Assembly: GCA_001552935.1 (NCBI GenBank)
Contig: KQ959677.1
Span: 88,094-152,093, forward strand
DNA: 64,000 bases
Source of the DNA: Umbribacter vaginalis
Lineage (GTDB): Bacteria; Actinomycetota; Coriobacteriia; Coriobacteriales; Eggerthellaceae
Direction of reading: 5' to 3'
Shown: piece by piece, positions 39,416 to 58,717 of the stretch
Numbering within the stretch: position 1 is the stretch's first letter
Layout: each line of letters opens with the position of its first letter
Notes under the pieces: generated by a model
The model's input: only the letters and a program-made list of their open reading frames with translations
Database searches by the model: none
What the model was told of the DNA's origin: nothing
Position numbers and translations under genes: made by a program

Positions 39416-40195
39416 TTAACCCCATGTAGTGCTTCCAGGTTGAGGCGCGGCTTGTGTTCCTGGCGATACCGTATTCGTTGCCGTGCCAGAATTAAACAAT
39501 GCTGACATCTGACCCGTTTCTACAGCCTCTAAAATGCGTGGATATTCAACGTATAAAAACGCTGCGTTGATAATAAGCGCTAGAACGGCCATTAAGAGCG
39601 CAATTTTGACGGGACGTATAAATAGTCGATAATCATTAAGATCGAGCTCTCTGTGGCGTTTTAAGACCTTCGTAATTTTTAGATACGAAATAATTGCGCA
39701 TATGAGCGATATTCCGCTTAAGAGAACGCCTCCAATAAGGAGAGACACGGGTGCTGCAACGCGCGTAAATGATATTAGCTTTCTGCCGCTTTCTAACTGC
39801 GAAAGCTCAGCAGCTGTTGTATTTTTAAGTCTAATATATCTGCGTGAAGGTTTACCATGAGCGTTTTGTTGTTCTGAACCAGAAACATCGTTGTTTGCTG
39901 AGTGGTCTGATGGCTCATTTTCAAATGATGTCGCATGTGTGGTATCCGCCGACGTATTTTGCGTTTTGGTGTCAAGTTCTGTTTCGTGCTGCGGATTGCT
40001 CATTTCTTGAGAAGCACTTGCTGGGAGATCATTATGAGTCAGATCAGGTTTATTATGCAGCTCAGGAGCATTATTAGATGCGTTTACTGTTGTGTCAGCA
40101 AATGATGTTTGCTCATCCTCTGACATAGGTATTTTACCTGTTGACATGCTAATACCCTTGTTGTTGGTAGTATCGTGCGAAACAGAATTGCTCAT
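39416..40195 (-). CDS. Unrecognised membrane protein with acidic disordered N-terminus
   Basis: I do not recognise this family. The 259-residue product has a long polar N-terminal region (about 1-115) rich in Asn, Ser, Thr, Asp and Glu, a basic patch GKPSRRYIRLK, two membrane spans (about 146-175 and 197-222) and a short Gly/Pro/Thr-rich tail. The hairpin of two spans resembles small DUF4190-like proteins only in layout. It overlaps dut by four bases (ATGA) so is co-transcribed with nrdR-dut. Topology would place the acidic N-terminus and the tail on the same side. Confidence 0.75.
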   Translation of the reverse strand: MSNSVSHDTTNNKGISMSTGKIPMSEDEQTSFADTTVNASNNAPELHNKPDLTHNDLPASASQEMSNPQHETELDTKTQNTSADTTHATSFENEPSDHSANNDVSGSEQQNAHGKPSRRYIRLKNTTAAELSQLESGRKLISFTRVAAPVSLLIGGVLLSGISLICAIISYLKITKVLKRHRELDLNDYRLFIRPVKIALLMAVLALIINAAFLYVEYPRILEAVETGQMSALFNSGTATNTVSPGTQAAPQPGSTTWG

Positions 40196-40641
40196 GCACG
40201 TACTCCGCTCGAACCAAAACCGCCCTCGCCTCTTTGAGTTTCTGTTAATTCATTGCATACAACCAAATTAACTTGTGGTACAGGTACAACAACAAGCTGT
40301 GCAATTCTATCGCCTTTTTCAATAACAAACGTACTATCTGTACTGGTGTTTAGAAGCGACACTTTGATTTCACCGCGATAGCCGCTATCGATAAGCCCTG
40401 GTGCATTAGTAACCGTTATGCCATGTTTAACCGCAAGTCCACTGCGAGGCACTACCAAGCCGGCATACCCACTTGGAAGCGCTATGGCAAAGCCGGTTGA
40501 TATTAAAACTCGTTGTGATGGCTCGATTGTGTAACACTCCGCCGAGCGTAAATCTAAACCGGCATCTCCCGCATACGCATACGATGGTAATTCAATATCG
40601 TTTCGCAGTGCCTTAATTGGTAATGTTATATCCTCACTCAC
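40192..40641 (-). CDS. dut: dUTP diphosphatase
   Basis: Hydrolyses dUTP to dUMP, keeping uracil out of DNA and supplying thymidylate synthesis. All five trimeric dUTPase motifs are present in 149 residues: AGDAGLDLRS, PRSGLA, GLIDSGYRGEI, RIAQLV and the C-terminal RGEGGFGSSG. GTG start, overlapping the nrdR stop (GTGA), with AAAGGG 8 bases upstream. Confidence 0.97.
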   Translation of the reverse strand: MSEDITLPIKALRNDIELPSYAYAGDAGLDLRSAECYTIEPSQRVLISTGFAIALPSGYAGLVVPRSGLAVKHGITVTNAPGLIDSGYRGEIKVSLLNTSTDSTFVIEKGDRIAQLVVVPVPQVNLVVCNELTETQRGEGGFGSSGVRA

Positions 40642-41087
40642 GAAGACAACCCTTTCACTATGTCGGAAAACTCCTGTATACTGTCGAATTTCTTATACAC
40701 ACTCGCAAAGCGAATATAGGCAACAACGTCAATCTTAGCAAGATGTTGCATAACTAATGAGCCAATTTCACGTGAACTAATTTCGTTTTTAGTGTTATTA
40801 CGAGCGCTATTTTCAATTTCATCAGCAATTTGTTCAAGTTGAGATGGTGCAATATGGCGCTTTGCGCACGCAATGATCAGGCCATGCATAAGTTTTGTAC
40901 GATCAAAAACTTCTGATGAGTTATCCGCCTTGGTAACCATAAGCGGACAGTCGGTCATACGCTCATACGTAGTAAAGCGATGACCACATGCAAGACACTC
41001 ACGCCGCCTACGTATAGAGCTATTATCTTCTGAGGGTCGAGAATCAATTACTTTAGATTCTAAATTTCCACACGCTGTACAACGCAT
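40638..41087 (-). CDS. nrdR: NrdR, ribonucleotide reductase repressor
   Basis: Zinc- and ATP-cone regulator that represses nrd genes when dATP is high. The zinc ribbon uses C3, C6, C31 and C34 (MRCTACG ... CLACGHRFTTYERM) and the ATP cone follows (from about residue 46). AAAGGAG lies before the ATG. It stands between the small SOS-linked gene and dut; no nrd gene is in the window. In Corynebacterium nrdR also follows the divS gene that is divergent from lexA, the same order as here. Confidence 0.97.
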   Translation of the reverse strand: MRCTACGNLESKVIDSRPSEDNSSIRRRRECLACGHRFTTYERMTDCPLMVTKADNSSEVFDRTKLMHGLIIACAKRHIAPSQLEQIADEIENSARNNTKNEISSREIGSLVMQHLAKIDVVAYIRFASVYKKFDSIQEFSDIVKGLSS

Positions 41088-41226: not shown

Positions 41227-41793
41227 CTATTGCATAAGTGCAATATATAAGGAAACACTACTGGCAAGTAAAAATGCTATTCCCCACCATGCACTTGCAG
41301 CATCGAAGCTATGTTCAAACGGTATACCACGAGCATCATTATAAATGACATCGTATATTACAACGCTTTTATCGGACAGACGTTTAACGACACGCTCAAA
41401 ACTCTGTATAAGGCTTTTTGTGGTTCGCGTAAGAAAAGTTTTTAAGGAGATAACTAAAGCAAAGGCGGCAGAGCAAAACGTATATTTCGTATGGGTATCA
41501 GATGTATGCTGCGTGCCTTTTTGCGATATTGTATGAATGGATAAAGAAGCTTTTGTAGGTATGGCATGCTGTGTAGTTGATGTGTTACGAGCAACCTTTT
41601 GATACGAAATATGTTTATCGAACACTTGTTCATGACAAGGCATTATATTCATAGGTACAACAAGATGTATACACGCACGATTATATGCGCTACTTGTTTG
41701 TTTTACATAACGATACTGCAGGTAAGAGCCAGTTTTCTTGCTTGTTTTTAATGCGCTTGTACCATAGGTTAAGGTTTTTTCAGAATTTCTCAT
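41227..41793 (-). CDS. Uncharacterised membrane protein divergent from lexA; candidate SOS-induced division inhibitor
   Basis: No family is recognised. The 188-residue product has a polar, Ser/Thr/His/Lys-rich N-terminal two thirds, a hydrophobic patch (FCSAAFALVISLKTF), a basic amphipathic stretch (RTTKSLIQSFERVVKRLSDK) and a C-terminal membrane span (last 23 residues). Its promoter TTGACA-N17-TATTAT runs into the SOS box at its start site, so LexA should repress it. YneA of Bacillus, DivS of Corynebacterium and ChiZ of mycobacteria, all encoded beside lexA, slow division during DNA damage and have little or no common sequence. No LysM motif is visible. The ribosome site is weak. Confidence 0.65.
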   Translation of the reverse strand: MRNSEKTLTYGTSALKTSKKTGSYLQYRYVKQTSSAYNRACIHLVVPMNIMPCHEQVFDKHISYQKVARNTSTTQHAIPTKASLSIHTISQKGTQHTSDTHTKYTFCSAAFALVISLKTFLTRTTKSLIQSFERVVKRLSDKSVVIYDVIYNDARGIPFEHSFDAASAWWGIAFLLASSVSLYIALMQ

Positions 41794-41812: not shown

Positions 41813-41842
41813 TTGCATAGAACCTTTGTTCGATATTATAAT
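41813..41842 (+). promoter_or_regulatory. lexA promoter
   Basis: TTGCAT (41813-41818) and TATAAT (41837-41842), spacer 18. The SOS box lies within the spacer, so bound LexA would block its own promoter. Confidence 0.75.
41819..41832. promoter_or_regulatory. LexA operator (SOS box) shared by divergent promoters
   Basis: GAAC-N4-GTTC with an added 3' G (AGAACCTTTGTTCG) matches the Gram-positive and actinobacterial SOS box CGAACN4GTTCG at all but the first base. It sits between the -35 and -10 of lexA and immediately downstream of the -10 of the opposite gene. Confidence 0.85.
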
Positions 41843-41866
41843 AAGGCGCAGCAAAATTGTTGTCAA
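41838..41866 (-). promoter_or_regulatory. Promoter of the lexA-divergent gene
   Basis: On the minus strand TTGACA (41861-41866) and TATTAT (41838-41843) are 17 bases apart. The -10 shares bases with the lexA -10 on the other strand, so the two promoters overlap fully. The predicted start is near 41831, inside the SOS box, giving a leader of about 38 bases. Confidence 0.8.
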
Positions 41867-41897: not shown

Positions 41898-42551
41898 ATG
41901 ATTCCTATTAAGCCTATAACGAAGAAGCAAAAGGTTGTTCTTGAGTGTATTGCGAAATACTACACTTCAAAAGGCTACGTACCATCAGTGCGTGAGATAT
42001 GTGATTTTGTCCATTTATCGTCACCCTCAACTGTGCATTCGCATATTGATAGTCTTGAGCAAAAGGGTTACTTACAGCGTGATAGATTTAAATCGCGCTC
42101 GTTTTCGTTGACGCGTAAAGCGTGGGAAGATCTGGGGTATCGCTCCCCTCGTCGTCCTGGGTTTTTACCTACTGATGTAGTATCTATTCCTTTAGTGGGT
42201 GAAGTGGCTGCTGGTACTCCTATTCTTGCAGAAGAAAATATAACCGATCATATTTCGATGCCCATTGAAATTGTTGGAGATACGCCATCGTTTATGCTTA
42301 CGGTACGTGGTGAAAGTATGATAGAAGCAGGCATTAACAATGGCGATTATGTTGTTGTTAAAGAACAAAACGTAGCTAATAATGGCGAGATTGTAGTTGC
42401 CCTTATTGATGACGGTGCAACAGTAAAGCGCTTCTTCAAAGAAGCAGATTGTATACGTTTGCAACCTGAAAATAGTGCTATGGATCCTATTTTAACGCGC
42501 GATTGTACTATTTTAGGAAAAGTAGTTGCTGTATTTAGGCGCGTTTACTAA
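41898..42551 (+). CDS. lexA: LexA repressor
   Basis: SOS master repressor that self-cleaves when RecA is activated. The 217-residue protein has an N-terminal winged helix (to about 70) with VPSVREICDFVHLSSPSTVHSH, the A105-G106 cleavage bond in GEVAAGTP, catalytic S140 in RGESM and K177 in ATVKRF. GAAAGGAG precedes the ATG. All residues for autoproteolysis are present. Its own promoter carries the SOS box. Confidence 0.97.
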   Translation: MIPIKPITKKQKVVLECIAKYYTSKGYVPSVREICDFVHLSSPSTVHSHIDSLEQKGYLQRDRFKSRSFSLTRKAWEDLGYRSPRRPGFLPTDVVSIPLVGEVAAGTPILAEENITDHISMPIEIVGDTPSFMLTVRGESMIEAGINNGDYVVVKEQNVANNGEIVVALIDDGATVKRFFKEADCIRLQPENSAMDPILTRDCTILGKVVAVFRRVY

Positions 42552-57441: not shown

Positions 57442-58482
57442 CTACTTTTTACTGGTTTTTGTTTCAGCTTTAGTGTTGGATTGAGTGGTAAGCGGAATCT
57501 GGTAAAATTCACGCACTTTAGTTTCAATTTCATCGCGTAGTTGAGGATGAGCTTGCAAGGTATCTTTCGCAGCATCACGTCCCTGACCAAGCCGTTCATC
57601 GCCATAGGTGTACCACGAACCACTTCTGCTAACAATTTTAGCTTCAGTAGCCATATCAAGAATGCACCCTTCTTTAGAAAAACCTTCGCCATAAATAAGA
57701 TCAATATCAGCTTGTCTAAATGGTGGCGCTACTTTATTCTTAACAATTTTTACGCGCACACGGTTGCCATATGGCTCCCCATTTTTCTTTAAGGTTTCAA
57801 CACGACGAATGTCAATACGTATACTGGCAAAGAACTTTAAAGCACGACCACCTGTTGTTGTTTCAGGATTACCAAACATCACGCCAATTTTTTCACGCAA
57901 CTGATTGATAAATATACACGTTGTATCCGATTTCGATAACGAACCCGCAAGTTTACGCAACGCTTGCGACATAAGGCGCGCTTGCAGGCCCACGGTGGTA
58001 GCCCCCATTTCACCTTCAATTTCTGCACGAGGCACTAAAGCTGCAACTGAGTCAACAATAATGCAATCAAATGCACCTGAATGGACCAATCGATCGCAAA
58101 TTTCAAGTGCTTGTTCACCGGTATCGGGCTGAGAAATATATAAATTTTCTAAATCGACTCCGAGACGTGCAGCATATACGGGATCAAGCGCATGCTCTGC
58201 ATCGATAAAAGCTGCATAGCCACCCATTGCTTGAGTTTCTGCTAATACTTGAAGCGCTAATGTGGTTTTACCACTTGATTCAGGGCCGTATACTTCAATA
58301 ATACGCCCGCGCGGAACACCTCCAATACCCAATGCTGCATCAAGCGCAAGCGCGCCGGTTGGTATAACTTCAACGGCAAGGTTATGATTTCCATCCCCGA
58401 GTTTCATGATGGAACCCTTACCAAACTTACCCTCGATTTCTGCAATCACTGCCTTAAGAGCATTATCTTTGTCAGCGCCCAT
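57442..58482 (-). CDS. recA: RecA recombinase
   Basis: Strand-exchange ATPase and co-protease for LexA. Walker A is [11 protein letters not shown] (about 67-77), with loops L1 and L2 ([37 protein letters not shown]) intact. Length 346 is typical. Two AAGGAG sites precede the ATG. Unlike lexA, its upstream region shows no GAACN4GTTC box; a CAAACGTTTG palindrome lies just upstream of the -10-like TATAAT (minus strand, 58522-58527). Confidence 0.98.
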
Positions 58483-58717
58483 TACCGCTCCTTACTCCTT
58501 TGCTTTTCAAAGCTTGTATCTATTATAGCGTACAAACGTTTGAAAAAACCAAACTATTTATTTTCACAGTATAAGCATTAAATCTTGCAAAAAACGAACA
58601 AAAATATCCTTATTTATGCGTTATTTCTTCCCTATTTATACGCCATTTTGCTGTAAAAAGACGCTTTATATCCGTTTCATGTGCTCGTTTTTGTATGATA
58701 TCTGTTTTGCTACTCGT

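Follow-up and report, generated by a model that had tools for sequence, protein, structure and literature searches.

A LysM-less, tail-anchored protein divergent from lexA in Umbribacter vaginalis and its relatives: a probable SOS-controlled division inhibitor of YneA/ChiZ-type descent

The stretch of 64,000 nucleotides analysed here (the window) carries, between lexA and nrdR, a small gene read divergently from lexA, whose product is referred to below as X. The features of the locus are as follows, with start codons picked via a Shine-Dalgarno score:

40192-40641, minus strand: dut (dUTPase), past nrdR; Pfam dUTPase
40638-41087, minus strand: nrdR, the next gene past X; Pfam Zn_ribbon_NrdR and ATP-cone
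41227-41793, minus strand: X, lexA-divergent, LysM-less and tail-anchored, 188 aa; open reading frame with ATG start
41233-41295, minus strand: C-terminal transmembrane helix of X, residues 167-187; hydropathy
41317-41352, minus strand: juxtamembrane motif of X, DVIYNDARGIPF, residues 148-159; in near relatives SIAYEDARGISFG and SLRYEDVRGISLG
41368-41439, minus strand: basic amphipathic stretch of X, residues 119-142; specific to the window copy
41619-41632, no strand: second SOS-like palindrome, CGAACacttGTTCA, within the reading frame of X and 200 bp away from the box beside lexA
41749-41763, minus strand: N-box GTSAL of X, residues 11-15, a conserved cytoplasmic motif; in 57 of 62 homologues of the window's family
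41819-41832, no strand: SOS box AGAACctttGTTCG, between X and lexA, the X-proximal member of an ancestral pair
41838-41866, minus strand: promoter-like site for X, TTGACA-17-TATTAT; 11/12, consensus match only
41898-42551, plus strand: lexA; Pfam Peptidase_S24 and LexA_DNA_bind

An earlier note, made from the letters of this stretch, had pointed to a 188-residue protein with a C-terminal membrane span that matches no family, is placed divergently from lexA with an operator between them and is followed by nrdR, and all of this holds: the reading frame and the helix are confirmed, searches of X against Pfam, NCBIfam, PHROGs and the PDB return no match, the SOS box lies between the two divergent genes, and the gene after X encodes both NrdR domains. 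By hydropathy, residues 167-187 form the sole strong membrane segment, ending one residue short of the C-terminus. An AF2 model built from the single sequence has a mean pLDDT of 32, with the helix (165-187) as its least unsure part and an N-terminus of low confidence. The basic amphipathic segment that had also been described is indeed present (at about residues 119-142), but it is peculiar to the window copy and is not conserved in shorter homologues, and therefore is not a defining feature of X. Past dut lies a membrane protein with a weak DUF4013 match (39416-40195), and a membrane ORF occupies the equivalent place at one related locus (L034).

The SOS box is found immediately downstream of the promoter-like site that reads into X. 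Perfect copies of the pattern GAACNNNNGTTC are depleted in the 1.70-Mb genome (G000), with 10 sites versus 43 for a reversed control pattern, and given this rarity the site beside lexA is not a casual one. Two of the ten fall at the X locus (41819-41832 and 41619-41632), and the remaining ones are mostly intragenic. The second SOS-box position of the window (41847-41860) reads CGCAGCAAAATTGT, which is a decayed remnant with 8/14 matches (counted by eye). The locus is AT-rich (GC 0.42 versus 0.55-0.59 in G002 and G003), and the LexA and NrdR proteins of the window sit on a long branch (0.8) relative to their genus mates. Elsewhere in the window, recA (57676-58461) has upstream only an SOS-like site with two mismatches (58529-58542), adjoining a TATAAT.

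Used alone as a protein query against 60 genomes, X finds no credible relative (the best match, at E 0.005, has stops inside), so that the family had to be reached through synteny and a profile instead. Relatives were found by place, that is, LexA was located in the genomes and the adjacent DNA was read. In the family of the window (f1, which includes Cryptobacterium curtum, G022), most genomes examined have a small gene in the slot between lexA and nrdR, and 62 slot proteins were read from 67 loci. The N-box, G-[TS]-[SA]-A-L (in a few proteins with variant letters), is present in 57 of these 62 proteins, its G and A being invariant in those. A second motif, IIxFP, is frequent in the family, not universal, and not recognisable in the X of the window, while many family members carry a YExxRGxxF-like motif ahead of the helix. 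In all 62 proteins only 0-5 aa separate the end of the transmembrane core from the C-terminus, and all 62 stay below the threshold of the LysM profile (best score 6.8 bits). The SOS boxes are paired, with a spacing of exactly 28 bp, at 58 of the 67 loci.

Outside the short motifs the sequence of the family changes fast, and dN/dS is 0.09-0.57 in 11 species pairs, which shows that the family is under purifying selection. The synonymous codons of the N-box vary freely, which rules out a cause of its conservation at the DNA level and, together with the dN/dS values, places the selection on the protein. Summed over the 62 proteins, the 20 residues ahead of the helix hold 192 Lys/Arg versus 84 Asp/Glu, and no Lys or Arg is found past it; this charge balance supports a topology in which the N-terminus would be cytoplasmic.

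The window copy was compared with this family by means of a profile of 58 f1 homologues from which its own genus had been left out. In that comparison X ranks first among the 739 ORFs of the window (E = 2.9e-6), and it scores 23.6 bits on the f1 profile, the best of 2000 shuffles of X reaching 8.5 bits. The N-box within the first ~30 residues, the C-terminal helix and the slot with its SOS box are all present, and the window ORF belongs to the LysM-less N-box family. It is a divergent copy, with an expanded middle, one decayed SOS box and a long-branched LexA.

Loss of the gene in relatives that keep the SOS box, which the earlier note counted against its own reading, does occur in part: several f1 relatives (e.g. 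G008, G019 and G062) have the double box and no X. Since the double box also serves lexA, its retention there says little. At the corresponding loci (L017, L034 and L175) the double box is followed first by nrdR, which may therefore be SOS-controlled itself.

The slot is conserved across the class Coriobacteriia. Outside the order, 16 of 17 slot proteins of the class consist of a short N-terminus, a transmembrane helix and an extracellular LysM domain (the exception being L137), and beyond the class, actinomycete and Firmicutes loci also have proteins with a helix and LysM in this place. In the sister families f4 (which includes Atopobium parvulum, G225) and f10, most members combine an N-box (G-[TNS]-x-A-L) with the helix and LysM. 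The LysM domain of such slot proteins is confirmed by Pfam, and their top match is the NCBI YneA model NF010723, across helix plus LysM (E 5e-13, 2e-16 and 7e-13), with scores of 48-60 bits, none of which reaches the curated 60-bit cut-off. X itself gives no match to this NCBIfam model.

The two forms can nevertheless be linked through the N-box. The f1 N-box profile detects proteins of f4, f6, f8, f9 and f10 above nearly all shuffles, and no protein from f11 or beyond; the N-box was likewise not found at a mycobacteria-like locus (L229). The reverse profile, made from the LysM-bearing proteins, recovers 53 of the 62 f1 proteins at scores beyond the 1% level of the shuffles, 42 of them outscoring every shuffle, and hhalign joins the LysM-bearing and LysM-less forms with P 3e-7 (probability 93). 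In a tree of LexA plus NrdR (a quick tree without bootstrap), the LysM-less families f1, f3, f5, f6, f8 and f9 cluster together with an SH-aLRT of 91, next to a group of f2, f4, f7 and f10 that for the most part bears LysM, and at least five changes of LysM state are required on it. One f4 genome (L145, G229) has a LysM-less N-box protein within this otherwise LysM-bearing family, apparently a separate and independent loss. In f2, a 210-aa slot protein (L098, G036) has a C-terminus like a decayed LysM (2.8 bits), and its family mate L114 retains the domain. One main loss plus a few others would make the neatest history, a single event being unproven. Taken together, the cytoplasmic N-box that is common to both forms points to the descent of X from a YneA/ChiZ-type gene via loss of LysM. 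In the f1 proteins the N-box and the helix have been kept, a juxtamembrane motif has been gained and LysM is gone.

X shows the position, operator, transmembrane and topology features of YneA-type inhibitors. YneA of Bacillus subtilis (NF010723) is, like X, lexA-divergent, controlled by an SOS box and inserted by one helix with the N-terminus inside; unlike X, it has this helix close to its N-terminus and depends for activity on an extracellular LysM, whereas in X a long cytoplasmic N-terminal part carries the N-box, the helix is C-terminal and there is no extracellular domain. Since X has no LysM and no match to the YneA model, the name YneA is unfit for it. The YneA helix binds helix 7 of FtsW, and without LysM it does not block division in B. 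subtilis (PMC13396833). ChiZ (Rv2719c) of Mycobacterium is also lexA-adjacent and SOS-induced, and has a cytoplasmic N-terminus followed by a helix, but it has retained LysM; its disordered cytoplasmic N-terminus plus the helix are enough for filamentation and mislocalisation of the FtsZ ring (PMC7355643).

Two further lexA-adjacent inhibitors are known to work without LysM, namely SosA and DivS (PMC6851548). DivS of Corynebacterium glutamicum is SOS-induced and has one helix (PMC6851548, PMC3989709). It is set apart from X, by description only, by an extracellular C-terminus. Its gene presumably has nrdR as a neighbour, as at the X locus. SosA of Staphylococcus aureus is small, lexA-divergent and single-spanning like X, and differs in that its helix spans residues 10-30 and is followed by an extracellular C-terminus, which is essential and on which CtpA-dependent turnover relies. 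SidA of Caulobacter is another small SOS-induced single-span inhibitor without LysM, and targets late divisome proteins; to our knowledge it is neither a lexA-divergent homologue nor a carrier of an N-box.

The position, the operator, the promoter, the nrdR neighbour and the single span are confirmed and widely conserved, so that an SOS-induced division inhibitor stays the best reading. X is thus probably an SOS-controlled inhibitor of division, a LysM-less, tail-anchored descendant of a YneA/ChiZ-type gene that would act from the cytoplasmic face and the membrane. LexA bound at 41819-41832 would cover the start of the X promoter, and DNA damage would lead to cleavage of LexA and thereby to the making of X. 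The protein would insert through its C-terminal helix, with its long N-terminal part kept in the cytoplasm and no portion exposed on the outer side, and could then block septum synthesis via this helix, probably against the FtsW/FtsI complex, which by analogy we take to be the likeliest target. The N-box and the juxtamembrane motif may act alongside the helix, with no peptidoglycan-binding LysM. In its layout X resembles a ChiZ truncation made by evolution (a cytoplasmic segment plus a helix), and from this likeness, and from SosA and DivS, which do without LysM, we infer that arrest could proceed via the helix together with those cytoplasmic motifs that are conserved. Damage induction, the inhibition of division, FtsW as the target and the role of the N-box are all read from conserved sequence and from these better-known systems, the searched literature having yielded no data on expression or phenotype from any member of the Coriobacteriia.

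Since YneA needs its LysM in B. subtilis, loss of this domain could also mean a lost or changed function, and X may be a descendant of the same gene that no longer blocks division and has taken up a different SOS-linked role at the membrane, such as signalling to another protein or sequestering one from there. The inactivity of LysM-less YneA, the several f1 genera that manage without X and the rapid change of sequence beyond the short motifs would all fit such a history. We consider it unlikely, because the operator, the position, the helix and the N-box are conserved over many genera under purifying selection, ChiZ still inhibits when LysM is removed, and the lexA-adjacent inhibitors DivS and SosA have no LysM either (PMC6851548).

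The earlier note read X as doing the same job with a different sequence, as if an unrelated protein had replaced YneA in the slot. The conservation of position, operator and single span upholds the first half of that statement, but the sequences are not unrelated, given the N-box link to a YneA/ChiZ-type gene. A replacement is therefore highly improbable, even though the LysM-bearing forms have no BLAST-level similarity to X and no Pfam family in common with it: the N-box profiles find the two forms reciprocally against shuffles, the hhalign match (P 3e-7) agrees with this, and a LysM-less N-box protein occurs inside the otherwise LysM-bearing f4 (L145, G229). The least probable of the readings is that the family is real elsewhere and the frame in the window genome is spurious or a decaying pseudogene. 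It would account for the divergence of this copy, its expanded low-complexity middle and its decayed operator, and the copy has no close relative from which dN/dS could be drawn; against it, 188 codons run uninterrupted, the N-box, juxtamembrane motif and helix are intact in one frame, the profile that excludes the genus still detects it (E 2.9e-6), and the promoter-like site and the SOS box are in place.

Tentatively, a whole branch of the order could have an SOS division inhibitor that lacks any extracellular portion and has a mechanism distinct from the LysM-dependent block of YneA, in which arrest would have to come from the N-box, the juxtamembrane motif and the helix; the N-box would then be a previously undescribed divisome-binding motif that was already in the LysM-bearing ancestor. 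The need for LysM in SOS division arrest differs between known systems, being essential in YneA and dispensable in ChiZ, and the natural series in one chromosomal slot (N-box, helix and LysM versus N-box and helix only) offers a direct test of it, with two short cytoplasmic motifs, the N-box and the juxtamembrane motif, as candidate working parts. No SOS division inhibitor is described in the searched literature for Cryptobacterium curtum or its family, for which X is a likely SOS checkpoint gene, and the LysM-less form occurs throughout this large family, whose members are actinobacteria of the gut and mouth.
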